From the NCBI GenBank assembly GCA_029866205.1, contig JARWZT010000022.1, forward strand, positions 1-64,000: a stretch of 64,000 nucleotides of DNA, in the 5' to 3' direction. This stretch comes from Rhodoferax sp. (lineage in GTDB: Bacteria > Pseudomonadota > Gammaproteobacteria > Burkholderiales > Burkholderiaceae_C). The notes under the pieces are model-generated. The model had not been told where the DNA came from, searched no databases, and worked only from the letters and a program-made list of their open reading frames with translations. The position numbers and the translations under genes were made by a program. Below, piece after piece: positions 12,712-64,000 of the stretch. Numbering within the stretch: the first letter of the stretch is position 1; every line of letters begins with the position of its first letter.

Positions 12712-13698
12712 TTAGTCGCTCTGCTGGTCTTCCTGCGCGTCGCGTTCAGCGCGCGTGGCAGGGCGTGGAATTTTTTTCAGCCGTACCAACCGACTGTGCT
12801 CGATATCGTCTTTTTTGAGTTGCCGCTCGGCGTCCATCTTTTGCCCCACCGCCATCCATTGGGCAAATTCATCAGGCGTCTCCAGCGTCACCCGCCCCAG
12901 GCTACCCGCGCGAAAGTCGTAAATAGCGATCTCGGCAGCCTTTTGCAAATTGATGCGCCCACCGGACTGCAAGGCGCCGCGCTTCTTGCCAATGGCGGCC
13001 AAGATTTCTTCGTCGCTCATGCCAGCCACGCCCTCTGCCTTGTAACGCGCCTCAATTTCGTGCGCGTAGTGCTGGCGCAGGTAGTCCAGCAGCTCCAGCG
13101 CCACCTCTTCTTCATTGAACGCATTGCGTCCAATCGCGCCACTGGCCGCCAGGTTGTAGCCGCTCTTGGCCACGATGATGCGCGGCCAAAGAACGCCCGG
13201 CGTGTCGTACAAATAAAAGTCGTCGGCAATCGTGATGCGCTGCTCGATTTTGGTGACACCGGCCTCGTCACCAGTTTTCGCCGAACGCTTGCCCTTGAGG
13301 GTGTTGATCAGCGTGGACTTGCCCACATTGGGAATGCCACAAATCAGCACCCGCATGGGCTTGGCCATGCCGCCGCGGTTGGGCGCCAGGGTATGGCAAG
13401 CCGCCACCAGCGCGCGCGCCGGAGTGCTCATGCTGGCGTCCAGCCCCAGCGCACGCACTCCGGGCATCGCGTTGTAGTGCGCCAACCACTGTTCGGTCCG
13501 CACCGGGTCGGCCAAGTCTTGTTTGTTCAGCACCTTGAGCGCGGGCTTGCCGCTGGTGATTTCGCCCAGCATGGGGTTGGCGCTGGAGCCTGGCAGGCGG
13601 GCATCGAGCAGCTCAATGACGACGTCAATGTCTTTGATGCGCTCGCCAATCGCCTTGCGCGTAAGGTGCATGTGGCCGGGAAACCATTGAATCGCCAT
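12712..13698 (-). CDS. rbgA: Ribosome biogenesis GTPase YlqF/RbgA
   Basis: The 328-residue protein is a circularly permuted GTPase. The G4 motif NKQD (58-61) precedes G1 GIPNVGKS (121-128) and G3 DTPG (165-168). It begins with the family signature QWFPGHMHLTRK. In Bacillus subtilis RbgA helps late assembly of the 50S subunit. The last ~70 residues are helical and charged (LKKIPRPATRAERDAQ), longer than minimal homologues. It lies downstream of gshA on the same strand with an 87-base gap that contains a hairpin, so coupling to gshA is uncertain. Confidence 0.92.
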   Translation of the reverse strand: MAIQWFPGHMHLTRKAIGERIKDIDVVIELLDARLPGSSANPMLGEITSGKPALKVLNKQDLADPVRTEQWLAHYNAMPGVRALGLDASMSTPARALVAACHTLAPNRGGMAKPMRVLICGIPNVGKSTLINTLKGKRSAKTGDEAGVTKIEQRITIADDFYLYDTPGVLWPRIIVAKSGYNLAASGAIGRNAFNEEEVALELLDYLRQHYAHEIEARYKAEGVAGMSDEEILAAIGKKRGALQSGGRINLQKAAEIAIYDFRAGSLGRVTLETPDEFAQWMAVGQKMDAERQLKKDDIEHSRLVRLKKIPRPATRAERDAQEDQQSD

Positions 13699-50165: not shown

Positions 50166-51512
50166 TTAGAAGGACAACACCAGAGAGGTACCCCAAGAAG
50201 TCTTCGTCTTGGAGTACGTAGTCGTATCCCCATCGGTTACCTCAAAGTTGTAGCCGCTGGACTGATCCAGCCGGTACTCGGTTTTCCACTGGGTGTTGGC
50301 ATTGATTTGGTAGTTCGTGCCCAAAGTCAACCGGGTGAGATTGGCCCCTGTAGTGGCGTACCCAAGGTCGTCAACCGCAAACTCACCTGCGGCATTTCGC
50401 TCTGGCCCCAACCCATTCAACAGAGCTCCGCCGTTGTCATAGTAGGTGCCACCACCATTGGCACTGTTTTGAATAAAGTCTGCGCGCGCCATCAATTGCA
50501 GTCGCGGAACAATTTTGTAGCTCACAAAGCCAGAAACGCCCGTCCATTGCGCTTTGCCACCGTTGGCCGCTGCTCGGAGCATATCCCCAACGGTAATCTG
50601 ACCGTTGTATTGCCAATCGCCTCGGGTATAACCTGCGTCCAGCGCCATGATATTGAAGGAGCGGTTATTGGAACCATGCAACCCGGACAGCCCAAAGTAG
50701 GTTGCATCATTGGGGTAATAGTCCATCCGGTACGCCACCGCCAAGGTTGACCCGTTTGAGGCAGCGCCGGAGAATGGCTCTTCCGACACAGGATCCGTTC
50801 CAAAGGTGATGGATTTGTCGTCGCTACCCTTGTCAACATTCCCCACCAACCACTTCAGCGCCACCTTGCCACCATTCAAGACGTGCGACATTCCGACGCC
50901 GGTGTAGGCCGTTGCACCCGCCAGGTCATAGAGAGCGTTGTGGGTGATCAACTGATTACCCAAGGTCGACGTCGCGTTGGGGAATACATACTCATACCCC
51001 TGAAAGTCAGGGATTAGACCGGCAATGATCCGGTTTTCTTTGTTCAGGGGAATCGACAATGAGGCCTCATGCACAAAGGGATCCCCACCGGGCATCAGCC
51101 GAAGCGTCCAATCAATACCTTCGCCGTCTTGGGACTCCTTGGTCAGTTGAATCATCCCCACCTCGCCTACGCCATACCCGGCCGATGCGCCGAAATCATG
51201 CTTTTTGTCTACATCGTTGTACTTGTAAGCCGCCTCAATCACCCCATTGATCTTCATTCCCGAAAAGCCGGAGGCTTCGGCGGTGTTTTCCGACAGGTCC
51301 AATTTTTGTTCCAAGCGGTTGACCTGCTGCGACAGGGGCGAGCCGTCCCCGGTGGCCGCACTCAGCACGTCCAGTTTATCCTGCAGCAATTTGAGCTGAG
51401 CCTTGAGCGCGTCAATTTCTTTGCGGGTATCGGCGCTGGTTTGGGCAAACGCGCTGGCCACAGGAAATAGGCTCGCAATAGCCATGACACACAATTTTTT
51501 CTGAAAGCGCAT
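50166..51512 (-). CDS. DUF3138 family outer-membrane beta-barrel protein
   Basis: The 448-residue protein has a signal peptide ending SAFAQ, a short coiled coil (EIDALKAQLKLLQDKLDVLSA), then a beta-rich region ending in aromatic VLSF, the usual outer-membrane insertion signal. The blocks RIIAGLIPDFQGYEYVFPN, THNALYDLAGATAYTGVGM and NGGGTYYDNGGALLNGLGPE match DUF3138, a porin-like family common in Burkholderiales. It probably forms the outer-membrane pore for a nearby solute. It is divergent from the PotF-like gene and preceded by an AGGAGAGA box. Confidence 0.82.
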   Translation of the reverse strand: MRFQKKLCVMAIASLFPVASAFAQTSADTRKEIDALKAQLKLLQDKLDVLSAATGDGSPLSQQVNRLEQKLDLSENTAEASGFSGMKINGVIEAAYKYNDVDKKHDFGASAGYGVGEVGMIQLTKESQDGEGIDWTLRLMPGGDPFVHEASLSIPLNKENRIIAGLIPDFQGYEYVFPNATSTLGNQLITHNALYDLAGATAYTGVGMSHVLNGGKVALKWLVGNVDKGSDDKSITFGTDPVSEEPFSGAASNGSTLAVAYRMDYYPNDATYFGLSGLHGSNNRSFNIMALDAGYTRGDWQYNGQITVGDMLRAAANGGKAQWTGVSGFVSYKIVPRLQLMARADFIQNSANGGGTYYDNGGALLNGLGPERNAAGEFAVDDLGYATTGANLTRLTLGTNYQINANTQWKTEYRLDQSSGYNFEVTDGDTTTYSKTKTSWGTSLVLSF

Positions 51513-51897
51513 ATCTCTCTCCTGTAGGTTAATCACACAATTCGGGGCTGCCGGCGAGCCCAACCCTTATAAGATCGCAAAAACCCTGATTCACGCGTCA
51601 CTTAGACCGAACGCGAAGACCCTGGGACATGCGCCAAAAGTAGCATGCACGATACCACGCCAAGGCTTGGCAGTGCAGATCTCCAACGGCCCAAAGCGCA
51701 CATTTTTCACCCGGGAAAACCCTTGGCTTCCCAAGGAAAAATGAGGCGCCAACGACCCGGTGCAAACCCCTAGGCCTTATTGAACGAATCGCTATTAGTA
51801 TGGTAATTTGGAGCCCTCGGGCCCCAGTCCGTAGTGGTTGTACGCGGGCGGTGTAAACGATTTCCCGGGGCGAGCAAATACTTTCCAGAAAGGTTTC
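51513..51897. promoter_or_regulatory. Divergent control region of the DUF3138 and potF-like genes
   Basis: This 385-base gap contains no gene. For the DUF3138 gene I see GTGAAT (51589-51594) and TATAAG (51566-51571) on the minus strand, 17 bases apart. For the potF-like gene TTGAAC (51780-51785) is followed after 17 bases by a weak GTAATT. An inverted repeat CCTTGG-CTTC-CCAAGG at 51721-51736 is a possible operator. Confidence 0.5.
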
Positions 51898-53001
51898 ATG
51901 ATGGCCAAGTCTGTTTTTCCGCGGATCGTGCGATGGCTGGGTACCGGCTTGCTGTTAGCGGCCACCAGCATGGGCCACGCGCAGGGGACGCTCAAGGTGC
52001 TGAACTGGTCCGAATACATTGGCCCCGAAGTCGTCGCCAAGTTTGAGAAGGCCACCGGCATCAAGGTGATCTACAGCATTTTGGACAGCGACGACACCTT
52101 GCAGGCCAAGCTACTCAGCGGAAACAGCGGCTACGACGTGGTCTATCCGAGTTCAAACTACATGGCAAAGCAAATCAAGGCCGGGGTTTACGAGCCGATT
52201 GATTGGACCAAGATTCCCAACAAACAATACCTCGACCCCATGGTCATGGGCCACACCGCCAAGAACGACCCGGGCAACAAATACGGCGTGCCCTACGTCT
52301 GGGGCAGCGAAGGTCTGATCGTTAACGTGACCAAGGCCAAACAAGCTTGGGGCGGGGAACTTCCACCCCTGAGCTTTGACCTTTTGTTCAATCCAGAAAA
52401 TGCCAAGCGCCTGCAAAAGTGCGGCATTGCCTTGATCGACCAGCCCAGCGAGGCCAGCACGATGTTGGCCTATATGGGCCGTGACCCCAACAGCCCCAAG
52501 ATGTCGGACACCGAAGACGCGTTCAAGGAACTTGCCAAAATTCGGCCTTATGTCAAGATGTTCTCTAACAATGTGATCTTGGACTTTTCGACCGGGGACA
52601 TTTGCATTTCCACGGGCTGGTCTGGGGACTACAACGTCATGAAACGACGCGCCAAGGCCGCAGGCAAAGACTACGACATCCGCTACGCGACGCCCAAAGG
52701 CGCGACCGGCCTGTGGTTCACGTTGATGGGAATACCCAAAGACTCCAACAACAAGGAGGCCGCGCACAAATGGATCAATTTCTTGCTCAGCCCCGAAATT
52801 GCCGCTGAAATCAACAATGAAATCACCTATACCACCGCGGTGTTGGCGGCACGGCCGATGATCAAGCCAGAGTTGTTGAACGACCCCTTTCTGTTTCCCA
52901 CTGAGGCTCAAATGGCGGAGTATTTCACCTTCAAGCCCCAAGAGACCGATCTGCTGCGTGCCACCAACAAGCTGTGGCTGCGCTACAAATCTGGCCGGTA
53001 G
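51898..53001 (+). CDS. PotF-like periplasmic polyamine-type binding protein, altered ligand residues
   Basis: The 367-residue protein has a signal peptide ending MGHAQ, then LKVLNWSEYIGPEVVAKFEKATGIKV, the PotF/SpuD opening. Compared from memory with E. coli PotF, several ligand residues are kept (the serine in YPSSNY, the Asp in GWSGDYN and a tyrosine in NEITYTT). The aspartate of NWSDY is Glu here, and the later aspartate of the FFD motif is Thr (LWFTLMG). These acidic positions hold the amine groups, so specificity may differ from putrescine. Tandem ATGs at 51898 and 51901 follow GAAAGG. It is convergent with the aminotransferase gene rather than joined to its permease genes. Confidence 0.88.
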   Translation: MMAKSVFPRIVRWLGTGLLLAATSMGHAQGTLKVLNWSEYIGPEVVAKFEKATGIKVIYSILDSDDTLQAKLLSGNSGYDVVYPSSNYMAKQIKAGVYEPIDWTKIPNKQYLDPMVMGHTAKNDPGNKYGVPYVWGSEGLIVNVTKAKQAWGGELPPLSFDLLFNPENAKRLQKCGIALIDQPSEASTMLAYMGRDPNSPKMSDTEDAFKELAKIRPYVKMFSNNVILDFSTGDICISTGWSGDYNVMKRRAKAAGKDYDIRYATPKGATGLWFTLMGIPKDSNNKEAAHKWINFLLSPEIAAEINNEITYTTAVLAARPMIKPELLNDPFLFPTEAQMAEYFTFKPQETDLLRATNKLWLRYKSGR

Positions 53002-53026
53002 CAGCGGGGTTTTCTTGGATCGGAGG

Positions 53027-53047
53027 GGGGCCGCACCAGCGGGCCCC
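53027..53047. terminator. GC-rich hairpin between convergent potF-like and aminotransferase genes
   Basis: GGGGCC and GGCCCC pair across a 9-base loop in the short gap between the two stops. There is no T-run, so only weak termination is expected. Confidence 0.35.
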
Positions 53048-53054
53048 GTCGCAT

Positions 53055-54464
53055 TCAGGCTACGGTGTAGCCCAGTTCCACTTCAATGTCGCGCGTGGTG
53101 CGGAGAATGCCCTCGCGCATGATGTCGAACATCTCATCGATCTGGGCGCGGGTAATGATAAGTGGCGGTGAAAAAACGCACTGGTTCACGATCGGGCGCA
53201 GCATCAGGCCCAAGTCCTGGCAATGACGGTCGATCCGGGCACCGAGGTCCACGTCAATCGCCAATAACGCTTCGGGGGACAGACCGCTGTGCTCCACGCC
53301 CCGAACGGTGCACTCCACGCAACCGAGCAGGCCGATGCCCCGGGTGTCAAATACCAAGGGGATGTCGCGCAACGAGCGCAGGCGCTCCTGGAAATGAGGG
53401 GCCAACGCCCGCACATTGCCCAGCAGGTCTTCGCGCTCGATGATCTCGATGTTCTTGAGGGCGGCTACGCTGCACACCGGATGCCCGGAGTTGGTATAGC
53501 CATGAGCGAACGAGCCGCCGCGCGCCTTGTCGCCGCTCACCTGGTCGAATATGCGGTCCGAAACCAAGCACGCGCCCAAGGGTAAATAGCCCGAGGTGAT
53601 GCCCTTGGCACAGGTCACCATGTCGGGCTCCACACCAAAAACCTCTTTGCTGGCGAACCAGTGCCCCAGCCGACCAAAGGCGGTCACCACCTCGTCGGCA
53701 ATAAACAAGACGTCGTGCTTGCGGCAGACCTCCCAGGCGCGCTTGTAATAGCCGTCCGGCGCCACGATGACACCACCCGAGGCCTGGACCGGCTCCGCAA
53801 TGAACGCCCCAACCTTGTCCGCCCCAATTTCAAGAATTTTGGCCTCAAGTTCGGCAATACGTGCATCGCAAAAAGTAGCAATATCCATGTCGGCTGGGCG
53901 GCGCTTGGGGTTCACACTGGACAGCAAATGCACCTGGGCCATGGTGCTGTCCAGGTAGCTTTTGTCGCGGTCCTTGCCGGCCACCATGCCCGTCAGGTAG
54001 CTGCTGCCGTGGTAGGCATCCGCGCGGGAAATGAGGTGTTTTTTTCCAGGGCGGCCCAGCACATTGTTGTAGTAGTGCACAAACCGCAGCGCGGTTTCAA
54101 CCGCCGTGGTTCCGCCGGTCGTGAAAAAAACATGGTTCATGGCGCCCGGCGCCATATGTGCAAGCCGTGCGGCCAATTCAGCGGGAGGGCCCGCGCTGAG
54201 TGCAAACGGATTGACGTAGCTGAGCTTGACCGCTTGCGCCCCTATCGCATCGGCCATTTCCTGGCGGCCATAGCCGATCTGGGTGCACCACATGCCGGCG
54301 GGACCATCGATCATGCGCGCGCCGGTGTCGTCGTGCACGTAAATACCCTCGGCGTGGGCGATGACGGTGCGCTGCGCCGCATGCGCTGTGGGCATGTACT
54401 CCCAAGGGTGCATCCAAAAGGGCTGTGGATCGGCGCCGCTTGCGGCTTGCTGGGGGGGGCTCAT
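53055..54464 (-). CDS. Class III (omega) aminotransferase, putrescine/beta-alanine-pyruvate type
   Basis: The 469-residue PLP enzyme has the class III pattern: FFTTGGTTAVETALRF, DAYHGSSYLTG, IADEVVTAFGR with Asp257, and CAKGITSGYLPLGA with the probable PLP lysine Lys287. It resembles SpuC-like putrescine- or other diamine-pyruvate aminotransferases, but TTGGTTAVE in place of the more common GS-S/A-N-D pattern shows some divergence. It should convert an amine to an aldehyde. The gene sits 45 bases downstream of a polyamine-type permease gene in the same direction and leads to the end of this transcript. Confidence 0.88.
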   Translation of the reverse strand: MSPPQQAASGADPQPFWMHPWEYMPTAHAAQRTVIAHAEGIYVHDDTGARMIDGPAGMWCTQIGYGRQEMADAIGAQAVKLSYVNPFALSAGPPAELAARLAHMAPGAMNHVFFTTGGTTAVETALRFVHYYNNVLGRPGKKHLISRADAYHGSSYLTGMVAGKDRDKSYLDSTMAQVHLLSSVNPKRRPADMDIATFCDARIAELEAKILEIGADKVGAFIAEPVQASGGVIVAPDGYYKRAWEVCRKHDVLFIADEVVTAFGRLGHWFASKEVFGVEPDMVTCAKGITSGYLPLGACLVSDRIFDQVSGDKARGGSFAHGYTNSGHPVCSVAALKNIEIIEREDLLGNVRALAPHFQERLRSLRDIPLVFDTRGIGLLGCVECTVRGVEHSGLSPEALLAIDVDLGARIDRHCQDLGLMLRPIVNQCVFSPPLIITRAQIDEMFDIMREGILRTTRDIEVELGYTVA

Positions 54465-54508
54465 GGTGGCTTCCTCATTCTGGGAATGGATCGAAATAAA
54501 GGGAAAGG

Positions 54509-55384
54509 TCAGGCGGGAGGCGCGTGCGCGAGGCGGCCCTCGCTGCTGTTACTGAGTACGGCCATGCGCAGGTAGCGGGCCTGGCGCTGTTCGCGCTTCA
54601 TCATGTAATAACTATTGACCACCACGCCAAAGCTGACCACCGCAATGATCAGGGTGCCAATGGCGTTGATTTCGGGGTTGAGCCCCAAGCGCATGCGCGA
54701 CAGCAGTACCAAGGGCAAGGTCGTGGTCTCAGGCCCCGACAAAAAGGCGGACATGATTACGTCGTCCAGCGAAATCGTCAGCGACAGGACCCAACCCGCC
54801 ACCAAGGAGGGCGCAATCAGCGGCAGGGTGATATCAAAAAACACCCGCAGCGGTGGCGCCCCGAGGTCGCGGGCGGCTTCGGCCAGCGACTTGTCCATGG
54901 CCGACAGGCGTGCTTGCACGGTAATGGCGACATAAGACACGCAGAGCATGGTGTGGCCAATCCACATGGTCGCCATGCCGCGCCCCTGCGGCCAACCCAG
55001 CGTTTGCTCAAGCGACACAAACAGCAGCAATAAGGAGATGCCCGAGATCACCTCCGGCAGCACCAGGGGCGCGTTCACCATGGCGGCGAACAGCGTGCTC
55101 CCCCGAAACCTTTGGTAGTTGGCCAATACGTAGCCAATCCACGCGCCAATAAAGACCGAACTGCAGGCCGTGGCCAGCGCCAACTCCAGGCTGGTGCGGC
55201 AGGCGTCCAAGATCTCGGTATCGTCCAAGAGCTTGAAATACCACTTCAACGAAAAATGTGTCCACTGGCTCGCAATTACGGACTCGTTGAAGGAATACAC
55301 GACCACGCTGAGAATGGGCAAGTAAAAAAACAGGAACACCAGCGCCAAAAAGCCGCTGCCCAGGTGGCGCCCGATGTTTTTCAT
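54509..55384 (-). CDS. potI: ABC transporter permease, PotI/PotC type
   Basis: The 291-residue membrane protein starts MKNIGRHLGSGFLALVFLFFYLPILSVVVYSFN. It has six predicted helices and the EAA loop DKSLAEAARDLGAPPLRVFFDITLPLIAPSL. The block ISLDDVIMSAFLSGPETTTLPLVLLSRMRLGLNPEINA is diagnostic of spermidine/putrescine permeases. The ATG at 55384 overlaps the previous stop as ATGA, so it is coupled to the PotH-like gene. Confidence 0.92.
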   Translation of the reverse strand: MKNIGRHLGSGFLALVFLFFYLPILSVVVYSFNESVIASQWTHFSLKWYFKLLDDTEILDACRTSLELALATACSSVFIGAWIGYVLANYQRFRGSTLFAAMVNAPLVLPEVISGISLLLLFVSLEQTLGWPQGRGMATMWIGHTMLCVSYVAITVQARLSAMDKSLAEAARDLGAPPLRVFFDITLPLIAPSLVAGWVLSLTISLDDVIMSAFLSGPETTTLPLVLLSRMRLGLNPEINAIGTLIIAVVSFGVVVNSYYMMKREQRQARYLRMAVLSNSSEGRLAHAPPA

Positions 55385-56307
55385 GCGGTCTGCGGCTCGC
55401 GGTTTTGCACGCGCTGAAACCAGACCATGGGCAGCAACAGTAGCGCGACCATCACGCAGGTTGCGGCCGAGGCCAGCGGCCACGCGATGCTGTTAAAAAA
55501 ATCCGACCACATCACCCGGCCGATCATGAGGTCTTGAGAACTTCCCAACAACTCCGGAATCACGTACTCGCCCACCGAGGGAATAAACACCAGCAAGCAT
55601 CCCGCAGAGATCCCGGGAAACGACAGGGGCAAAGTGATCGTGAGAAACACCTCCCAGGGCTTGGCGCCCAGGTCTCGCGCAGCCTCGGGCAGGCTGGTGT
55701 CCATCTTGACCAAAAAGGCGTACATCGGCAGCACCATGTAAGGCAAGTAGGAATAGACCATGCCTACGTACAGTCCAAAGGTGTTTTGCATGAGCGCAAA
55801 TGGGGTGTCGCTGAGGCCCAGGTAGATCAGCAGCCGGTTGGCCAATCCTTGGTCTTTCAAAATGCCAATCCAAGCGTAGACGCGCACCAGATAGGACGTC
55901 CAAAAAGGCAGGATGATGCCCATGAGCAGCAGGTTGCGAAGCGCCGGGCGGGCGTTGGCAATCAACAGCGCGGTGGGATACCCGACCAACAAACACAACA
56001 GTGTCGTAAAAAAGGCCACCTTGACCGAGCTGACATAGGCGGCAAGGTAGATGTCGTCCTCCAATATGGTCCGGTAGCTTTCGAAATTCAGCGAAATCGC
56101 CAGCTTGTCATGCTCCAGCGCCAACAAATGCGTAAATGGCGGGACGTCCATGGTGGACTCGGCAAAGCTGATTTTGAGCACCATTAAAAACGGCACCATG
56201 AAAAACACCAGCAAAAATACAAAAGGAAGTCCAATCGCCCAAGCTTTGCCCGATGGCAACCAGCGCCATAGTGCAAGGTCTGCAGCGGGCTTGCGCGGTG
56301 TCGCCAT
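55381..56307 (-). CDS. potH: ABC transporter permease, PotH/PotB type
   Basis: The 308-residue protein has six helices beginning AIGLPFVFLLVFFMVPFLMVLKISF. It contains LRNLLLMGIILPFWTSYLVRVYAWIGIL, typical of PotH, and the EAA loop DTSLPEAARDLGAKPWEVFLTITLPLSFPGI. It forms the channel with the PotI-like protein. The gene begins one base after the PotG-like stop and overlaps the next gene, which indicates a tight operon. Confidence 0.92.
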   Translation of the reverse strand: MATPRKPAADLALWRWLPSGKAWAIGLPFVFLLVFFMVPFLMVLKISFAESTMDVPPFTHLLALEHDKLAISLNFESYRTILEDDIYLAAYVSSVKVAFFTTLLCLLVGYPTALLIANARPALRNLLLMGIILPFWTSYLVRVYAWIGILKDQGLANRLLIYLGLSDTPFALMQNTFGLYVGMVYSYLPYMVLPMYAFLVKMDTSLPEAARDLGAKPWEVFLTITLPLSFPGISAGCLLVFIPSVGEYVIPELLGSSQDLMIGRVMWSDFFNSIAWPLASAATCVMVALLLLPMVWFQRVQNREPQTA

Positions 56308-56308
56308 G

Positions 56309-57454
56309 TCAGTTCAAGACCACCAGGCTGCGCACCGACCAACGCAGCTGCAAGGTGTCGCCGTAGTCGGGCTCTTGAGAAAAGCCGACCAAAATTTCCC
56401 GCGGCACGTGGACCATCACCACGCGACCCGAACGCAGCCGCAAGTAGTACAGGGTATAGCTTCCCATGTACCCGATTTGCTCCACCACGCCCAAGGCGCT
56501 GTTGTGGACCGGCGGAGTTGTGTCGTCCTCGGGAAAGGACAAGCGAATGCGCTCCGGTCGGATTGACACCTGCACCGCGTGCCCTTGGCGCGCATTGGCC
56601 ATGGCAAAACCGAGTTCCAGAGGCTGCTCTAGCTCGCCGCAATGCAGCGCACTGCCGCCGTCCTGGGCCAGCGTGCCGGTAAACACATTGGTCGAGCCAA
56701 TGAACTCGGCAGCAAAACGGGAGCTGGGCGCCTCATAAACGTTTTCGGGCGTTCCCATTTGCACAATCGCACCCTCACTCATCACCGCCAACCGGTCGGC
56801 CATCGTCATGGCCTCTTCCTGGTCGTGCGTCACCATGACACAGGTCACGCCCACCTTTTGCAAAATCGTGCCGAGCTCGAACTGGGTCTTCTGGCGAATT
56901 TTTTTGTCAAGGGCGGACATGGGCTCGTCCAGCAGCAGCAGCTTGGGGCTTTTCACCAGGCTGCGCGCAAGCGCCACGCGCTGCTGCTGTCCGCCTGAGA
57001 GCTGGGCAGGCATGTGCCCGGCATAGGCCCCCATTTGCACCAGCTCTAGCACTTCGCGCACCCGCTCTTCGCGCTCCGGGCGCGCCACGCCTTCGCGCTT
57101 GAGGCCATAGGCCACGTTGGCGCTGACATTCATGTGGGGAAACAAGGCGTAGGACTGGAACATCATGTTCACCGGCCTGCGGTGGGCCGGCAAATCGGTA
57201 ATGTCTTGACCGTCCAAAATAACGCGGCCGCTGCTGGGCGTCTCGAGTCCGGCCATGATGCGCAGCAGCGTGGACTTGCCGCAACCTGAGCTGCCCAGCA
57301 AAGCAAAAAACTCCTTGCGCCGCACCGACAGGCTCAGCCGGTCCACCACCGTGACTTCGCCAAATTTTTTGCTCACGTCCACGATTCGCAAAAAGCCTTC
57401 TTCCCCCAGCACGGGCTCAGGCGAGCGGTTCGTTGTATTTGGCAGGGTGCTCAT
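56309..57454 (-). CDS. potG: ABC transporter ATP-binding protein, PotG type
   Basis: The 381-residue ATPase has Walker A GSSGCGKST at 54-62, QLSGGQQQR at 151-159, LLLDEPMSALDKKIR and a C-terminal TOBE domain (from about 290). The Q-loop region NMMFQSYALFPHMNVSANVAYGL is typical of PotG/PotA. The start at 57454 (MSTLPNTTNRSPEP) overlaps the end of the acyl-CoA dehydrogenase gene by four bases; the longer in-frame extension is antisense-like noise within that gene. Confidence 0.93.
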   Translation of the reverse strand: MSTLPNTTNRSPEPVLGEEGFLRIVDVSKKFGEVTVVDRLSLSVRRKEFFALLGSSGCGKSTLLRIMAGLETPSSGRVILDGQDITDLPAHRRPVNMMFQSYALFPHMNVSANVAYGLKREGVARPEREERVREVLELVQMGAYAGHMPAQLSGGQQQRVALARSLVKSPKLLLLDEPMSALDKKIRQKTQFELGTILQKVGVTCVMVTHDQEEAMTMADRLAVMSEGAIVQMGTPENVYEAPSSRFAAEFIGSTNVFTGTLAQDGGSALHCGELEQPLELGFAMANARQGHAVQVSIRPERIRLSFPEDDTTPPVHNSALGVVEQIGYMGSYTLYYLRLRSGRVVMVHVPREILVGFSQEPDYGDTLQLRWSVRSLVVLN

Positions 57455-58638
57455 AAGCCAATCATCCCGACCACGCCGCGCTTGAGCAGGCTGCGCGCAA
57501 TGATGAGGCGCTGGATTTCGCTCGTGCCTTCCCAGATGCGGTCCACCCGCAGTTCGCGAAAAAAGCGCTGCGCCGGGTTGCTGCGCATATAGCCCCGGCC
57601 CCCAAAAATTTGCACCACCCGGTCTGCTACCCGGTTGGCCATCTCGGAGGCGTAGAGCTTGGCCATGGAGCAATGGGTGTGGATCAAGGCCAGGTCTTCG
57701 CCCCGGTCTTGCATTGCTGCGGCCTCGTAAGTCATCAGACGCGCGGCCCACAGTTCGGTGATGCTGTCGGCCAGCATGGCCTGGATCAGCTGGTATTGCG
57801 AAATGGGGTGACCCGAGACCACCCGCGATTGCGCAAACGCGCTGGCCAGGTCAATCAAGCGCCCAGCAGCACCGCAGCAGCGCGCGGCAATCATCAGGCG
57901 TTCGCGGCGAAACCAGCTGCGCGTGAAATCCATGCCCGCCCCCGGCGCACCAATGCGGTTGGCAGCAGCCACCCGCACATCCCGGAAAGCATAGGTCGGG
58001 TGGTGTGAGGAATAGGTGTGGCCAAACAGCGGGTTGTCGAGCATCTCAATGCCCGCACTGTCCTTGTCCATGAAAAACAGGGCGTGCTGGCCGCTGGCGC
58101 CGTCGCCCCCGCCCTCGTCCACCACGGCTTGAAAGAACAGAAAGTCGGCCTTGTTGGCACTGGTGACAAACCATTTTTCTCCGCTGATCAAGTAATCATC
58201 GCCCACGCGCCGGGCCACGCTGGCAATGGCGGTGTTGTCTGAACCGGCCTCGGCCTCAGTGATGGCGTAGCACTCGCGGCGCTGGCCTTGCATCATGGGC
58301 AAGATATAGCGCTCAATCTGGTCGGCGTTGCAAGCCTCGAACATCCAGGCGTGCACCTCGGACATGCACCAGCTCAAGGCATTGGTGACGCGCCCGAGTT
58401 GCTCCCACACCACCACCTGCGTCAGCATGGGCAAAGCCAGGCCGCCGTAAGACAGCGGCGCGTCCATCAGGGGAAAGCCCAGTTCCATGGCCGTTTGCTT
58501 GTGGTGCACATACACCGCCGCAGGTAATTCGCCGTCGTTGAACTCCGCCGTTTCCTCGTGGGGCATGAGCACCTCATCGGCAAAGGCGCGGGCGGTGCGT
58601 TGCCACTGGAGCGCTGCGTCAGACAGGGGATAGGCCAT
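57451..58638 (-). CDS. Acyl-CoA dehydrogenase family flavoprotein
   Basis: The 395-residue protein has the acyl-CoA dehydrogenase fold: ECYAITEAEAGSDNTAI, WFVTSANKADFLFF, RRERLMIAARCCGAAGRLID and the C-terminal FGGRGYMRSNPAQRFFRELRVDRIWEGTSEIQRLIIARSLLK. It oxidises an acyl-CoA or possibly a related substrate with FAD. It is the first gene of the transporter operon and overlaps potG by four bases. An acyl-CoA dehydrogenase heading an amine-transport operon suggests that the imported compound is degraded through a CoA thioester. The start MAYPLSD at 58638 is chosen by family length. Confidence 0.88.
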   Translation of the reverse strand: MAYPLSDAALQWQRTARAFADEVLMPHEETAEFNDGELPAAVYVHHKQTAMELGFPLMDAPLSYGGLALPMLTQVVVWEQLGRVTNALSWCMSEVHAWMFEACNADQIERYILPMMQGQRRECYAITEAEAGSDNTAIASVARRVGDDYLISGEKWFVTSANKADFLFFQAVVDEGGGDGASGQHALFFMDKDSAGIEMLDNPLFGHTYSSHHPTYAFRDVRVAAANRIGAPGAGMDFTRSWFRRERLMIAARCCGAAGRLIDLASAFAQSRVVSGHPISQYQLIQAMLADSITELWAARLMTYEAAAMQDRGEDLALIHTHCSMAKLYASEMANRVADRVVQIFGGRGYMRSNPAQRFFRELRVDRIWEGTSEIQRLIIARSLLKRGVVGMIGL

Positions 58639-58856
58639 GGATGAGACTTCCGCAATGCAGGCGCCTGGCGGGTATGCCAATTGCCTATTGTTGAACGACA
58701 GTATAGTAAGACAAGCTCCTGCGTGCCAGCCCATTTTGCACTGGTACAAACCCGTATTGAGCCCCTCTGGGCTTGATATTTATATTAAACAACCGTACAG
58801 TAAGGCCATTCTTCAGCCTGTCGATCCGCGCCAGGCCCGGTCCACGGAGCCCCCGC
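58639..58856. promoter_or_regulatory. Divergent promoter region of the catabolic cluster
   Basis: On the plus strand TTGATA (58773-58778) and TACAGT (58796-58801) are 17 bases apart, a good sigma-70-type pair for the flavoprotein operon. On the minus strand TATACT (58700-58705) with CTGGCA (58724-58729) at 18 bases could serve the acyl-CoA dehydrogenase and pot genes. The short motif TA-T/C-AGTAAG overlaps both -10 areas (58702-58710 and 58796-58804), so one regulator might control both directions. No regulator gene is in the window. Confidence 0.6.
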
Positions 58857-60476
58857 ATGACAAGTTCTTCCCCCGCCCAGCGCCAGCGCTACGACGTGAT
58901 CGTGGTGGGCTCTGGCCACAATGGCCTGGTCAGCGCCGGCTACCTGGCCCGCGCCGGCCTCAAGGTGCTGGTGCTAGAGCGCAATGACTATATTGGCGGC
59001 GCGGCTGTGAGCCGCAGCTTGCACCCGGAATTCACCTACTCCAACTGTTCCTACGTTTGCAGCCTGCTGCGCCCGGAGATCATGCGCGCCCTGGAGTTGC
59101 CCAAATACGGCCTGCAAGTCATTCCCTATGGCGGCGGCGCGGCGCTGACCAAGGACGGACGCCACCTGGCCACTTACCCAGACCATGACGCACAGCGGCG
59201 CGAATATGCCCGCCACTCCAAGCGCGACGCCGAGGCCTACGAGCGCTTTTCGCGCGACGTGATGCGCCAGTGCAAGTTCATCAAGCCCTTGCTCATGCGC
59301 ACGCCGCCAAACCCGACCGCCTTCAAGTCCAGCGACCTGATGGAGCTGCTCTACCTGGGCCAGCGCTTTCACGGCCTGGGTGACGAGCGCATGCACGACA
59401 CCATCCGCTTTTGGACCATGAGCGCGGCCGACTACTTGGATGAGTATTTTGAGAACGACCTGATCAAGGCAACGCTGGCGGGCAGCTCCATCATCGGCAC
59501 CGCCCTGGGGCCGCGCTCACCGGGCACGGCTTATGTGCTGCTACACCACTACATGGGCGATATTGACGACGCTGTGGGCTCATGGGGTTTTGCGCGCGGG
59601 GGCATGGGCGCAGTCACCCGCGCCATGGGCGACTCGCTGCGTGCCAGCGGCGGCGAAATCCGGGTCGAAGCAGGAGTCGAAAAAATCCTCTCGCGCAACG
59701 GCCGCGCCTACGGCGTGGCCCTGGCCAGCGGCGAGGAGTTGTACGCCAGCACGGTGATCTCCAACATGGATGTCAAACGCACTTTTCTGAACACGGTGGA
59801 CGAAAAAGAGCTTCCCAGCGAGTTTGTCGAACTGGTGCGGCGCTTCAAAATTCGCGGCTCCTCGGGCAAGCTCAATATCGCGCTCGACGGCCTGCCCCAT
59901 TTTCCTGCCCTGCCACCAGACTCGCCTGCGATCAAGGGAGATATGCATATCTCGGAGACCATGGACGACATCGAGCGTGGCTACGACGACTGGAAGGCGG
60001 GCCGCTGGTCTAGCCACCCGTATGTGGACATGCTTATGCCCTCCATCATCGACCCCACCATGGCGCCCGAGGGCAAGCACTATATGTCGGTGTTTGTGCA
60101 GTACGCGCCCTACCACCTGGCCGACGGCCCCTGGACTGCCGAGAAACGCCAGGCCTTTGGCGACACCGTCATCAACGCCATTGCCGAGCACAGCCCCAAC
60201 TTCAAAAGCCTGATCCGCCACGCCGAAATCCGCACCCCCTGGGACATTGAAAACGAAGTCGGCCTGACCGAGGGCAATATCTTCCAAGGCGAACTCACCA
60301 TGGACCAGCTGCTTTTCAACCGCCCGATTCCCGGCTATGCGCAATACCGCTCACCCATCAAAGGGCTGTATATGTGTGGTTCGAGCACGCATCCGGGCGG
60401 CGGCGTCATGGGTGCGCCAGGCGCTAACGCGGCGCGCACCGTGCTCAGCGATCTGGGCAGAAAGGCCGCAGCATGA
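58857..60476 (+). CDS. PYROXD2-like FAD/NAD(P)-dependent oxidoreductase 1
   Basis: The 539-residue flavoprotein opens DVIVVGSGHNGLVSAGYLARAG with GSGHNG at 18-23, then LERNDYIGGAAVSRSLHPEF. Its end reads MCGSSTHPGGGVMGAPGANAA. This is the phytoene-desaturase/PYROXD2-like pattern, related to carotenoid desaturases and amine oxidases but without carotenoid genes nearby. No signal peptide is seen, so it is cytoplasmic. It probably oxidises an amine or a C-C bond with FAD. I use the ATG at 58857 (MTSSSPAQRQRYD). The second flavoprotein gene overlaps its stop. Confidence 0.9.
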   Translation: MTSSSPAQRQRYDVIVVGSGHNGLVSAGYLARAGLKVLVLERNDYIGGAAVSRSLHPEFTYSNCSYVCSLLRPEIMRALELPKYGLQVIPYGGGAALTKDGRHLATYPDHDAQRREYARHSKRDAEAYERFSRDVMRQCKFIKPLLMRTPPNPTAFKSSDLMELLYLGQRFHGLGDERMHDTIRFWTMSAADYLDEYFENDLIKATLAGSSIIGTALGPRSPGTAYVLLHHYMGDIDDAVGSWGFARGGMGAVTRAMGDSLRASGGEIRVEAGVEKILSRNGRAYGVALASGEELYASTVISNMDVKRTFLNTVDEKELPSEFVELVRRFKIRGSSGKLNIALDGLPHFPALPPDSPAIKGDMHISETMDDIERGYDDWKAGRWSSHPYVDMLMPSIIDPTMAPEGKHYMSVFVQYAPYHLADGPWTAEKRQAFGDTVINAIAEHSPNFKSLIRHAEIRTPWDIENEVGLTEGNIFQGELTMDQLLFNRPIPGYAQYRSPIKGLYMCGSSTHPGGGVMGAPGANAARTVLSDLGRKAAA

Positions 60477-62035
60477 GCGCCGCCTTTGACGTGATCGTGA
60501 TTGGTGCGGGCCACAACGGCCTGGCCTGCGCACTGGACTTGGCGCGCGCCGGACGCAAGGTGCTGGTGCTCGAATCGGCAGCGCAGGTGGGCGGTGCGGC
60601 CATTACCCGCAGCTTCGCGCCGGGCTTTCAGGTGTCGGCCTGCGCGCACCTGCTGCATGCGCTGCCGCAGTCCCTGCTGCGCGACTTTGCGCTGGAACAG
60701 CACGGTCTGCGCTTTGCCGCCACCGCCATGGCCACGCACGCGCTGTCCGAAACAGGCCCGTGCCTGCGCATCGACAGCGCCACCGTCACCGGCATCAGCG
60801 CGCTGGGCGAAGACGCTGCAAATTACGGCTTGTTTCGCCAGCGCATGGGCCGTTATGCGGCGCTCTTTTTCGCGCTCCTGAGCGTCAAGCCGCCGCGCCT
60901 GAGCCTGCAACGCTGGAGCGAGCGCTGGGACATGCTCAAACTGGCCTTGCGTCTGCGCCTGCTGGGTACCGCGTCCATGCGCGAACTGCTGCGCATTGGC
61001 GGCATGAACGCCTACGACCTGCTTGACGACAACTTCCAAAGCCCCGCGCTCAAAGGCGCCTTGGCCTTTGACGCCACGCTGGGCGCCGAATACGGCCCGC
61101 GCTCGCCCGGCACGGTGCTGACCTGGCTGTACCGCCTGGCCGGCGAACACGGCGCTGGCAGCCTGGGGCTGGCCCAGCCCGCAGGCGGCATGGGCGCGTT
61201 CTCTCAGGCGCTGGCCCAGGCCTGCCGCTCCGCCGGGGTGGAAATTCGCCTGAGCACGCCAGTGGCGCGCATATTGGTGGAGCGAGACCACGCGGTGGGC
61301 GTAGCCCTGGCCTCGGGTGAAGTGGTGGCTGCAGCCACCGTGGTGTCGAGCGCGGCGCTGCGCAGCACTTTCTTGCGCCTGCTGGGCGCCGAACACTTGG
61401 ACGGCGGCTTTGTGCGCCGCATTGACCACTTCCGGGCCAAGGGCCTGGTGGCCAAACTGCACCTGGCGCTGCGCGACTTGCCGCATTTCACGGGGGCCGA
61501 CGCTGCGGCCCTGGGCGGGCGACTGCTCATTAGCCCCAGCATGGATTACTTGGAGCTAGCCTTTAACCCGTCCAAATACCGCGAAATTCCGCAACACCCC
61601 GCCCTAGAAATCACTCTGCCCACGGTGAACGACGCCAGCCTGGCGCCTGCCGGGCAACACGTCTTGTCTGCGCTGGTGCAATTTGTGCCCTATGACCTGG
61701 GCCCAGACCCCACAGCCGCGCGCGCCGCACTGCTGGAAAACACCTTGGCCACGCTGGAGCGCTACGCGCCAGGCATTCGCGCGTTGGTGGTCGCTGCCGA
61801 GTTGCTCACGCCTTCAGACCTAGAGCAGGAATTTGGCCTTGCCGGGGGCCATTGGCACCAGGGCGCGCTGGCTTTTGACCAGTTTTTTGTCAACCGCCCC
61901 CTGCCCCAGAGCCACCAATACCAAACACCCTTGCCCGGCCTGTTTTTGTGCGGTGCGGCCTGCCACCCGGGCGGCGGCGTGATGGGCTTTGCGGGGCGCA
62001 ACGCTGCGCGCTGCGTGCTGCGCCAAGGAGATTGA
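60473..62035 (+). CDS. PYROXD2-like FAD/NAD(P)-dependent oxidoreductase 2
   Basis: The 520-residue protein is a divergent paralogue of its upstream neighbour. GAGHNG is at 11-16, VGGAAITRSF follows, and the C-terminal CGAACHPGGGVMGFAGRNAARCV matches the first protein's CGSSTHPGGGVMGAPGANAAR. The middle domains differ much more, which suggests different substrates or a heterodimer of two subunits. Translation is coupled (ATGA overlap). The order with the GcvT-like and Rieske genes downstream is consistent with one catabolic pathway. Confidence 0.9.
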   Translation: MSAAFDVIVIGAGHNGLACALDLARAGRKVLVLESAAQVGGAAITRSFAPGFQVSACAHLLHALPQSLLRDFALEQHGLRFAATAMATHALSETGPCLRIDSATVTGISALGEDAANYGLFRQRMGRYAALFFALLSVKPPRLSLQRWSERWDMLKLALRLRLLGTASMRELLRIGGMNAYDLLDDNFQSPALKGALAFDATLGAEYGPRSPGTVLTWLYRLAGEHGAGSLGLAQPAGGMGAFSQALAQACRSAGVEIRLSTPVARILVERDHAVGVALASGEVVAAATVVSSAALRSTFLRLLGAEHLDGGFVRRIDHFRAKGLVAKLHLALRDLPHFTGADAAALGGRLLISPSMDYLELAFNPSKYREIPQHPALEITLPTVNDASLAPAGQHVLSALVQFVPYDLGPDPTAARAALLENTLATLERYAPGIRALVVAAELLTPSDLEQEFGLAGGHWHQGALAFDQFFVNRPLPQSHQYQTPLPGLFLCGAACHPGGGVMGFAGRNAARCVLRQGD

Positions 62036-62036
62036 A

Positions 62037-63254
62037 ATGCGATTCGAAGCCATTAATACCGCCTCCAACGCCCACTACCGCCGCCCGCTGCTGCATACGC
62101 CATTTTTTGAGGCCAGCAAGCCCTGGATACAAAACGACACCTTTATCGCCTGGGCCGGCTATTCCACCCCAGACGTGTACTCTTACCCCGAACACGAGTA
62201 CTTCGCCATCCGCAACACCTGTGCCCTGTTTGACCTCACGCCCATGGTCAAGTACCGCATAGCCGGGCCCGACGCCGAACGCTACCTCAACCGGGTGGTG
62301 ACTTGCGACGTGCGCAAACTCAAGGTCAACCGCGTCATCTACACCCTGTGGTGCAACGACGAAGGCCATGTGATCGACGATGGCACGATTTTTCGCTTTG
62401 GCCCCCAAGAATTTCGCATCTGCAGCGCCGAGCGCCAGCTCGACTGGCTTTTAGACTGCGCCATCGGCTATGCCGTGGAAATCAGCGAAGTCACCGCCGA
62501 CATTGCCGCGCTCGCGCTGCAAGGCCCCACCTCGTACACGGTGCTGGCGGCCTTGGGCCTGCAGGGGTTGGAAAACCTGAGCCCCATGGGCATGATGCAG
62601 CAAGAGTTTGAGGGCCATACGGTGATGGTCTCGCGCACCGGGTTTACCGGCGACCTGGGCTATGAGCTGTGGATCGCCCCCGAAGGCGCTGCCGCACTGT
62701 GGACGCGCTTGATGGAAGTGGGCCACCAGCGGGGCATCACGCCCATGGGCTACCAGGCGCTGGAGATGGCGCGCATTGAGGCCGGGTTTATCCTGCCGCA
62801 TGTGGACTTTATTTCTTGCAACCACACCATCCGCCTGGGGCGCGAAAGCTCGCCCTGGGAACTCAATCTGGACTGGACGGTGGCGCTCGAGAAAGGCCAC
62901 TTCAATGGCCGGCGCGCACTGCTGGCTGAAAAAGCACGGGGCGTGCGGCGCAAGCTGGTTGGCCTGGAGCTTGAAGGCAACAAGCCGGCGCACGGCTCGC
63001 TGATTTACGCCGACGAGGCCAATACCCAGCAAATCGGCGAAATCACCGCCGCCCTGTGGTCACCCACCCTCAAACGCAACATCGCCATCGCCAAAATCGA
63101 CGCGCCGCACTATGACAGCAAGGCCAAGATGTGGGTAGACCTCTACCTCAACCGCGAGCTGCAATGGGAGCGCAGAAACGTGCGCAGCTGGATTGTGGAC
63201 CGGCCCTTTTATTCCCCTCCGCGCAGGCGCGCCACGCCGCCGCCGCTGCGATAA
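62037..63254 (+). CDS. Aminomethyltransferase (GcvT/DmdA-like) family protein
   Basis: The 405-residue protein is of the GcvT T-protein fold, which uses tetrahydrofolate to accept one-carbon units. Matching blocks are FAIRNTCALFDLTPMVKYRIAGPDAE, LNRVVTCDVRKL, SRTGFTGDLGYELW and ALEMARIEAGFILPHVDFI, close to dimethylsulfoniopropionate demethylase DmdA and sarcosine-type T-protein relatives. The likely role is transfer of a methyl or methylene group from the substrate to tetrahydrofolate. A CAAGGAG box sits before the ATG at 62037. The sequence ends with an Arg-Pro-rich tail (PPRRRATPPPLR). Confidence 0.88.
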   Translation: MRFEAINTASNAHYRRPLLHTPFFEASKPWIQNDTFIAWAGYSTPDVYSYPEHEYFAIRNTCALFDLTPMVKYRIAGPDAERYLNRVVTCDVRKLKVNRVIYTLWCNDEGHVIDDGTIFRFGPQEFRICSAERQLDWLLDCAIGYAVEISEVTADIAALALQGPTSYTVLAALGLQGLENLSPMGMMQQEFEGHTVMVSRTGFTGDLGYELWIAPEGAAALWTRLMEVGHQRGITPMGYQALEMARIEAGFILPHVDFISCNHTIRLGRESSPWELNLDWTVALEKGHFNGRRALLAEKARGVRRKLVGLELEGNKPAHGSLIYADEANTQQIGEITAALWSPTLKRNIAIAKIDAPHYDSKAKMWVDLYLNRELQWERRNVRSWIVDRPFYSPPRRRATPPPLR

Positions 63255-63266
63255 ACCTTACGCGCC

Positions 63267-64000
63267 ATGAGTACTGAAACAAAAATTGCTTTTCCTAGGC
63301 CCGCAGCTTCTGGCCAAGAGACCGTGCGCGCGGCGCTGGCCCAGTGCCAAGAAGGCCATGCGCTGCCGCGCGCCTTCTACACCGACCCCGCACTGTTTGC
63401 CTGGGACATGCGCCACTTTGTGCTGGCGCACTGGCATTGCGTGGGCCACACCAGCATGGCAGCAAAGCCGGGCGACTTCTTTACAGCAGAGATTGCTGGC
63501 GAGTCGCTGGTGATCGTGCGCGGCGAGGACGGCGCCCTGCGCGCCCTGCTCAACGTCTGCCGCCACCGGGGCTCGCGCGTGTGTACGCAAACCCAGGGCC
63601 ACGCTAGCAATGGCAAATTTGTCTGCCCTTATCACGCCTGGACTTACGACACCCAGGGCGCCTTAAGCAGCGCGCGCTCGATGCCTGAAGACTTTGACCG
63701 CAACAAATTCCCACTCAAGCAGGCGCATTTGCAGGTCGAAGAAGGCATGGTGTTTATCAGTCTGGCCGAGCAGCCCTTGGGCCTGGACCATGTGCGCGAG
63801 GCGTTTTCGGTCTCCGCCAAGGTCTACGGATGGGGCCGGGCCAAGGTGATTGCGCGAAAAACCTACCAGATACAAGCCAACTGGAAGCTGGTGGAAGAGA
63901 ACTACCAAGAGTGCTACCACTGCGGCCCAGCGCACCAGGAATACGCAAAACGCCATACCTATTCCCGCAGCCAAGCCCTGCGCGACGGGCCTGACGACGC
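63267..64000 (+). CDS. Rieske aromatic-ring-hydroxylating-type oxygenase alpha subunit, GbcA-like, partial
   Basis: The first 244 codons are visible; the gene continues past the right edge. The Rieske cluster is C98-R-H100 and C120-P-Y-H123. The mononuclear iron site begins NWKLVEENYQECYHCGPAH, with His218 and His223 and bridging Glu215. The segment ECYHC closely resembles glycine-betaine demethylase GbcA and relatives that oxidatively remove N-methyl groups, releasing formaldehyde. The start at 63267 is 12 bases after the GcvT-like stop, so the genes are in one operon. The second half of the catalytic domain and any reductase partner lie outside the window. Confidence 0.9.
   Translation, partial: MSTETKIAFPRPAASGQETVRAALAQCQEGHALPRAFYTDPALFAWDMRHFVLAHWHCVGHTSMAAKPGDFFTAEIAGESLVIVRGEDGALRALLNVCRHRGSRVCTQTQGHASNGKFVCPYHAWTYDTQGALSSARSMPEDFDRNKFPLKQAHLQVEEGMVFISLAEQPLGLDHVREAFSVSAKVYGWGRAKVIARKTYQIQANWKLVEENYQECYHCGPAHQEYAKRHTYSRSQALRDGPDD

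Follow-up and report, generated by a model that had tools for sequence, protein, structure and literature searches.

A patchily distributed gene module, possibly for catabolism of a methylated amine cation, in a Rhodoferax genome

The window analysed here, a 64,000-nucleotide stretch of Rhodoferax sp. DNA (positions 1-64000 of contig C11 in genome G000; contig and window coordinates agree), ends in a gene cluster for a PotFGHI-like transporter, two CrtO/PYROXD2-like flavoproteins (PYR1 and PYR2), a stand-alone GcvT-like protein, Rieske oxygenases and a class III aminotransferase. Judged by its sequence, the cluster very probably serves to import and N-demethylate a cationic amine. Coupling of the demethylation to folate by the PYR proteins and the GcvT-like protein is rather likely. 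The arguments are about evenly balanced on the full reading, in which a catabolic module spread by horizontal transfer acts on a methylated aliphatic (poly)amine or a methyl-lysine-type cation, and a methylated di- or polyamine or methyl-lysine is put forward as the substrate tentatively.

Gene organization of the cluster

All genes named in a first-pass annotation of the window (porin, PotF, PotGHI, aminotransferase, acyl-CoA dehydrogenase (ACAD), two flavoproteins, GcvT-like protein and Rieske oxygenase) were present as long open frames where they had been placed and were of the family kinds given there, as assigned with profile models (NCBIfam, Pfam) against gathering or equivalog cut-offs. 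The cluster extends past position 64000 and was completed by reading the contig, which extends to 145,727, onward to 77,000. Of the genes expected there, a regulator of the BetI-like TetR type was found next door, together with a second Rieske oxygenase, whereas BenC-like reductases and FolD exist elsewhere in the genome. The initial observation was confirmed and is stronger than could be seen from the window alone. Its interpretation was partly supported: the outline is right and the coenzyme A (CoA)-linked step is unsupported.

The plus-strand operon has the order PYR1-PYR2-GcvT-like-Rieske A-TetR-Rieske B with intergenic gaps of at most 45 bases. The divergent minus-strand operon comprises ACAD, PotG, PotH, PotI and the class III aminotransferase (58638 down to 53055), and is adjoined by the potF gene on the plus strand and the porin gene on the minus strand (Table 1). 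No characterised pathway with this gene set was found in the open-access literature, preprints excluded, in agreement with what had been suggested.

Conservation and distribution of the module

When 398 genomes of the phylum were searched with the PYR1 protein, 53 had matches at E <=1e-100. Orthologues of at least 59 % identity were present in 11 of the 398, own genome included; the next best match reached 43 %, and the 42 matches of 36-43 % identity were assigned to a different branch and excluded. The module counts given below refer to the 10 other genomes (survey genomes), which lie outside the own class and were found by PYR1 alone without regard to its neighbours. PYR1 identity was 56-67 % in these genomes and 62-67 % in named Alphaproteobacteria.

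The genes for PYR1, PYR2 and the GcvT-like protein were contiguous in all 10 survey genomes, each of which also had a TetR gene near PYR1. A class III aminotransferase was found in the fetched surroundings of nine (not G327) and a polyamine-type ABC transporter in eight, the exceptions being G008, with one adjacent permease and a PotGHI-like set 23 kb away, and G327, with none in the fetched stretches. Seven genomes had a Rieske oxygenase, which lay approximately 23 kb off in G331 and was a fragment at the stretch edge in G307; in G055 the cluster was cut by the contig end, and no Rieske oxygenase was recognised in the fetched stretches of G008 and G327.

The same kind of gene set was present on annotated plasmids of Shinella, Rhizobium SL42, Parasedimentitalea and Fuscovulum, and also in Ensifer, a second Shinella, Phyllobacterium and freshwater Comamonadaceae bins; these loci were found with the GcvT or PYR2 query and were not counted as independent. 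In the genus survey the GcvT-like protein occurred in 11 of 100 genomes, and in the family survey PYR1 occurred in 2 of 399, own genome included in both cases. The carriers are scattered among bacteria of freshwater, marine and soil origin. Since the distribution is patchy and the identity high, the core points to a patchily inherited module that was probably spread horizontally. The other family match (G591:C153, L099) was a 63 % identical PYR1 relative from another genus on a 4.8-kb contig of a bin that is 6 % contaminated; it may be a contaminant and was not used. A locus on a 3-kb contig (L011) and GcvT-like relatives of 27-29 % identity (L016-L022) were likewise left out of the counts.

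A full CoA-linked route with the ACAD as an integral step, part of the interpretation first offered, is very improbable. The ACAD gene is the first of the PotGHI-aminotransferase operon in the window and in L008-L010 and adjoins potG in L006, but in two relatives of the same genus (G418 and G487) no match was found between potG and PYR1, just a short frame starting alike (MAYPLS), and in 18 of the 19 alphaproteobacterial or other-class cluster loci compared no ACAD was found beside PYR1 either. Elsewhere a 35 % identical relative lay approximately 6 kb from the G321 cluster, with 23-24 % identical ones further off in G327 and G008, and the module has no recognisable acyl-CoA ligase or transferase. 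Found in only part of the genus, apart from distant relatives, ACAD was rejected as a core gene.

The GcvT-like protein and the flavoproteins

The GcvT-like protein scored 208.0 bits on PF01571 (GCV_T; gathering cut-off 25.6) and 269.3 bits against the folate domain of trimethylamine N-oxide (TMAO) demethylase, its closest match. Two GcvT models gave 230.8 and 189.4 bits, below their cut-offs of 300 and 235.85, and DmdA gave 123.1 bits, far from the equivalog cut-off of 410; the initial "GcvT/DmdA-like" label is corrected in that the protein stands closer to TMAO demethylase and GcvT than to DmdA. The solved relatives were, in order, the TMAO demethylase folate domain, GcvT, dimethylglycine dehydrogenase and sarcosine oxidase alpha. 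The folate-site motifs DDGT, SRTG[FY]TGDLGYE and R-x-E were present in 23 of 24 GcvT-like orthologues, a set that excludes Phyllobacterium L014.

GCV_T domains occur at eight places in the genome (contigs C1, C24, C17 and C11), six of them in open frames of more than 800 residues, and sarcosine oxidase alpha exceeds its cut-off (1191.6 versus 1164 bits). There are two FolD genes. Because there are eight GCV_T places in 3.07 Mb and the second FolD gene lies beside one of them, the genome looks like that of a methylated-amine specialist.

PYR1 and PYR2 are CrtO/amine-oxidase-like in NCBIfam and Pfam. They score best on models of carotenoid ketolases and desaturases, which, together with the limited DmdA likeness of the GcvT-like protein, would fit flavoproteins that oxidise or hydroxylate a carbon skeleton beside a GcvT-like protein moving a methyl group redox-neutrally, as DmdA does. 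This possibility is quite unlikely, as the GcvT-like protein scores far higher on TMAO demethylase and GcvT than on DmdA and its gene adjoins both flavoprotein genes throughout the survey genomes. The PYR2 of Shinella sp. PSBB067 (L028) aligned as two pieces, at 13423 and 14276, possibly due to a frameshift or sequencing error.

The Rieske oxygenases

On the GbcA model Rieske A, the "GbcA-like Rieske" of the first-pass annotation, scored 276.2 bits and Rieske B 128.0 bits, both well short of the equivalog cut-off of 670. The nearest solved relatives of Rieske A were 3n0q and 4qup/3vca, the latter two of which we take to be stachydrine demethylases. A search of the open-access literature (no preprints) for stachydrine or proline betaine found nothing.

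In CntA, Glu205 bridges the subunits and Tyr203 holds the quaternary nitrogen by a cation-pi interaction (PMC7948474). The Rieske CxH...CxxH motif and a bridging Glu instead of Asp were present in Rieske A, Rieske B and all eight other Rieske proteins of the clusters. Tyr occupied the Tyr203 place in Rieske A, L024a and L025a, and Phe occupied it in two SRPBCC-annotated proteins of L024. No dedicated Rieske reductase was recognised inside the cluster; the BenC-like reductases, two in number, could serve the Rieske proteins.

Transporter, aminotransferase and amine oxidases

All four Pot subunits scored below the PotF, PotG, PotH and PotI equivalog cut-offs, PotF with 324.9 bits on NF007962 (cut-off 636). 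Asp278 of the PotF pocket is conserved in at least 96 % of PotF relatives (PMC8666671). The window PotF retains the proximal amine site (Ser38, Glu39 and Asp247) and the aromatic box (Trp37, Trp244 and Trp276) and has Thr in place of the distal Asp278, so the altered PotF noticed at first is real. The L009 and L010 copies agree where readable (three of three Comamonadaceae copies read). Trp244 and Asp247 were retained in six of six PotF-family proteins of the clusters, including a second PotF of L009, and the PotFs of Fuscovulum and G321 have Asp for Glu185. In L009, a genus relative, a second PotFGHI set and a class III aminotransferase (35-50 % identical) directly follow Rieske B (L009:14406-19860).

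The aminotransferase scored 646.2 bits on PRK07036, over the cut-off of 618. An enzyme of this type is also present in Parasedimentitalea (651.1 bits), and Shinella, Ensifer and Rhizobium have 47-51 % identical ones. That of Fuscovulum is GntE/HemL-like, with relatives in G321 and G008, and none was recognised in G327. An extra flavin amine oxidase was found in seven of the 10 survey genomes and in four Phyllobacterium loci (at least 50 % identical to each other's reference); the nearest solved relatives of the G307 protein were amine, monoamine, cyclohexylamine and putrescine oxidases. It was not seen in the Shinella, Ensifer, Rhizobium, Parasedimentitalea, Fuscovulum, G321, G327, G008 and Comamonadaceae loci.

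These data bear on a second candidate substrate for the same chemistry, an omega-amino-acid betaine (beta-alanine betaine, gamma-butyrobetaine or 5-aminovalerate betaine), which would be completely demethylated to an omega-amino acid and then converted to a semialdehyde by the class III aminotransferase. The omega/pyruvate type of the aminotransferase, the resemblance of Rieske A to betaine demethylases and the loss from PotF of Asp278, which is among the groups at the second-amine end, all agree with it. This substrate is nevertheless unlikely: the transporters are of polyamine type in eight of the 10 survey clusters, seven have the added monoamine/putrescine-oxidase-like enzyme, the Fuscovulum and G321 PotFs retain Asp278, and there was no semialdehyde dehydrogenase among the recurring gene groups scanned.

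The shared control region and the genes downstream

A promoter scan of the 218-bp region between the two operons gave three promoter-like sites versus 0.3 expected from shuffles. Two 20-base operator-like boxes each overlap the -10 element of one such site, one per direction. The combined 20-base pattern, derived from these sites, had two matches with up to three mismatches in 64 kb and none in 100 shuffles; a shorter 11-base pattern (the two main sites, one mismatch) gave two matches with 0.5 expected, a number reached by 8 of 100 shuffles and thus not significant. Eight sites, taken from the window and from L008, L009 and L010, were made into a matrix. By construction both boxes of the window reach 29.4 bits; no other place in the window exceeds 10.9 bits, and the best place in seven other stretches of the genome has 9.5 bits. 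Slightly altered versions of the boxes occur in L006-L010. An independent check was provided by G418 (29.4 and 27.3 bits) and G487 (29.4 and 23.2 bits), in which ACAD has been lost and potG faces PYR1 directly.

Since the twin boxes in the shared control region are kept in relatives, co-regulation of both arms is likely. Independent regulation, which would have spoken against a single pathway, is disfavoured by the sequence, as both arms face one divergent control region. The TetR protein scored 119.3 bits on the BetI model PRK00767 (cut-off 118) and 123.7 bits on TIGR03384, below its cut-off of 201.3, and might repress both divergent promoters. A third box before potF, at 51797, was found with a 10-base pattern fitted to the sites, missed with the 11-base pattern (one mismatch) and not adopted; the best matrix score before potF was 5.6 bits in the window and 13.0 bits in G418 and G487.

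Rieske B is followed by a second group of genes (contig C11 66447-74051; L070:2448-10052) for a LysR regulator, an MttB-superfamily protein, two OYE/TMADH-like flavoproteins and a piperideine/pyrroline-2-carboxylate reductase-like protein, in the order LysR-MttB-OYE1-OCD-OYE2. The MttB-superfamily protein needs no pyrrolysine, as its gene has no internal stop codon. No corrinoid-protein gene was recognised beside it; two B12-binding_2 places lie elsewhere in the genome.

With these MttB, OYE and piperideine-2-carboxylate reductase genes the cluster might degrade a heterocyclic betaine (homarine or pipecolate betaine), a reading that is highly improbable. Its merits are that the MttB/OYE genes directly follow the cluster, L007 keeping the same order up to MttB (LysR-MttB), that a 73 % identical OYE2 relative lies near the Shinella cluster L023, and that N-methylpipecolate is among the PYROXD2-linked metabolites (PMC8109053). 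However, OYE2 was found in 18 of 20 genus genomes tried, namely the own genome, nine of 10 other module carriers and eight of nine non-carriers (one at only 43 % identity), and in all nine other carriers, most of them fragmented drafts, it lay on other contigs than the module. After Rieske B, L009 continues with its second PotFGHI set and aminotransferase, and L010 has PotI and PotH before the contig end. The boxes are absent from L070.

Homarine is chiefly a marine metabolite, whereas the module carriers include soil and freshwater bacteria. A homarine operon, homABCDER, has reportedly been described in a preprint. No homarine catabolic genes were found in the open-access literature (no preprints) or in passages of PMC12817926, PMC9038784 and PMC9723723. 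The downstream arm was rejected as part of the pathway, with some doubt in view of L007 and the Shinella OYE2 relative, and appears to be a separate, genus-wide locus.

Proposed pathway and substrate

The individual reactions, their order, the role of the regulator and the substrate class are what we infer from the observed gene set, conservation, linkage, key residues and twin boxes. PotFGHI would import a methylated amine. The Rieske oxygenases (A, perhaps also B) would hydroxylate a methyl group on a quaternary or tertiary nitrogen, the methyl being lost as formaldehyde. The N-methyl groups still present would next be converted to iminium ions through oxidation by PYR1 and PYR2, the GcvT-like protein would hand the carbon to tetrahydrofolate (THF) as 5,10-methylene-THF, and the freed primary amine would be taken by the class III aminotransferase. 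The chemistry of the PYR and GcvT-like proteins would be that of dimethylglycine or sarcosine oxidase, carried out by separate subunits and another flavoprotein family. The parts resemble a folate-coupled oxidative N-demethylase taken apart, with a Rieske enzyme added for the fully methylated nitrogen. Import plus oxidative N-demethylation, as initially proposed, is supported by the conserved module, the quaternary-amine features of the Rieske proteins, the folate-site residues of the GcvT-like protein and the shared control region.

The choice of a methylated di- or polyamine or methyl-lysine is based on the polyamine-type transporters and amine enzymes in many clusters, the loss of a carboxylate in PotF and human PYROXD2 genetics. 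The human PYROXD2 missense variant rs2147896 accounts for 50 % of N6-methyllysine variance in blood, 48 % of that of N6,N6-dimethyllysine and 21 % of that of N-methylpipecolate (PMC8109053), and urinary trimethylamine and plasma dimethylamine are associated with the locus (PMC3169529). These associations fit the methyl-lysine/methylated-amine substrate class.

Several observations weigh against the proposed pathway. PYROXD2 was associated with missingness of N2-acetyl,N6,N6-dimethyllysine, but significance was lost after adjustment for diabetes (PMC13352909). The GcvT-like copy of G008 has Glu-Glu for Asp-Asp and a changed second motif. The Tyr203 place is occupied by Asn in Rieske B and by Asp in L023, L024b, L025b and L026, and a quaternary substrate is therefore not implied for them. 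Two further Rieske-type oxygenases of the own genome were compared: one on C10 has Asp at the bridge, whereas one on C1, with no Rieske motif by the pattern used, has both Glu and Tyr; these residues are thus suggestive, not diagnostic. The change of Asp278 to Thr is confined to the Comamonadaceae copies, Asp being retained in the PotFs of Fuscovulum and G321 and in the second PotF of L009, and the binding protein of the Shinella cluster is weakly PotD-like, so that the clusters give no uniform picture of the chemistry at the ligand end. The types of aminotransferase and amine oxidase also vary between clusters. In G327 the order is TetR-PYR1-PYR2-GcvT and no transporter, aminotransferase or Rieske oxygenase was recognised in the fetched stretches, so the flavoproteins may work without them. 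Finally, the best models of the flavoproteins are of the carotenoid type, and the kinship with human PYROXD2 behind the PYROXD2-like label is an assumption.

If the proposed pathway is true, the tandem flavoprotein pair, the detached folate acceptor and the Rieske oxygenases would bring one-carbon units into folate by a new route. Decaying cells release methylated lysines, polyamines and betaines, whose bacterial demethylation is known for only a few. A broader and more doubtful proposal is that the enzymes of the PYROXD2 family as a whole dehydrogenate N-methyl amines and that a free-standing folate-binding partner captures the resulting iminium, that bacteria use them in a pathway for methylated lysines or polyamines, and that the same chemistry explains the human enzyme. 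With the module, bacteria could offer a tractable model of PYROXD2, which is a human disease gene of unknown activity.

Other genes at the loci

The porin has a 62 % identical relative beside potF in the genus relative G478 (L100). A gene for an S-adenosylmethionine (SAM)-dependent methyltransferase, odd for a demethylation operon, lies between TetR and PYR1 in L027, L028, L059, L062, L063, L064 and L065 (L065:8262-9170), and its relatives lie downstream in L025 and L114. An uncharacterised protein of approximately 80 residues, with no NCBIfam match, is encoded after the GcvT-like gene in L023 (16203-16448) and has relatives in L012-L015, L026-L028 and L059-L065. Hydrolases of different families (Amidohydro_3, Amidohydro_2, M20 and histone-deacetylase-like) and a DMSP-lyase-family protein were also seen near the module; the hydrolases might act on acylated forms to release the amine.

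Table 1. Features of the cluster and its surroundings (window positions unless stated otherwise)
Feature	Position	Strand	Remark
Beta-barrel porin (DUF3138/BBP2)	50166..51512	-	start taken at 51512
PotF-like solute-binding protein	51898..53001	+	proximal amine site and aromatic box kept, Asp278 to Thr
Class III (omega-type) aminotransferase	53055..54464	-	PRK07036
PotI-like permease	54509..55384	-	family models
PotH-like permease	55381..56307	-	family models
PotG-like ATPase	56309..57454	-	family models
Acyl-CoA dehydrogenase (ACAD)	57451..58638	-	accessory, outside conserved core
Shared divergent control region, 218 bp	58639..58856	.	between the two operons
Operator-like box 1, TTGAACGACAGTATAGTAAG	58691..58710	+	over -10 of minus-strand promoter-like site
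Operator-like box 2, TTAAACAACCGTACAGTAAG	58785..58804	+	over -10 of plus-strand promoter-like site
PYR1, CrtO/PYROXD2-like flavoprotein	58857..60476	+	best conserved of the three core proteins
PYR2, second CrtO/PYROXD2-like flavoprotein	60473..62035	+	37 % identical to PYR1
GcvT-like folate-binding protein, stand-alone	62037..63254	+	GCV_T
Rieske oxygenase A, 426 aa	63267..64547 (window end cuts at 64000)	+	bridging Glu and Tyr203 equivalent
BetI-like TetR regulator	contig 64593-65234	+	BetI models
Rieske oxygenase B	contig 65258-66442	+	after TetR
Hydrolase/DMSP-lyase-family places, other loci	L025:22533-24984, L067:6652-8412, L068:15882-17561, L012:17756-18970, L024:671-1693		

Comparison with known systems

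Dimethylglycine oxidase and heterotetrameric sarcosine oxidase share with the module, as proposed, flavin-dependent N-methyl oxidation beside a folate-binding GCV_T unit, including the Asp and neighbouring folate-site residues. In the module, however, the folate unit is free-standing, and the two flavoproteins are CrtO/PYROXD2-like and not of the DAO family. The C-terminal folate domain of TMAO demethylase (Tdm) is the best-scoring relative of the GcvT-like protein, but Tdm is one fused protein acting on TMAO, and only its folate domain has a counterpart here.

The Group V Rieske oxygenases (GbcA, Stc2 and CntA) have in common with the cluster proteins the Rieske motif and the bridging Glu and, in Rieske A, the Tyr203 equivalent; they differ in the low GbcA scores obtained here and in the absence of that Tyr from Rieske B. 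The PotFGHI putrescine transporter shares the four subunits, the proximal amine site of PotF and its aromatic box, whereas the module has Thr for Asp278 and subunits scoring below the equivalog cut-offs. Human PYROXD2, an orphan mitochondrial flavoprotein, presumably belongs to the same family as PYR1 and PYR2, and genetic associations link it to methylated lysines and amines. The human enzyme is of unproven activity and, unlike the operon-embedded bacterial pair, has to our knowledge no operon-like set of partners.

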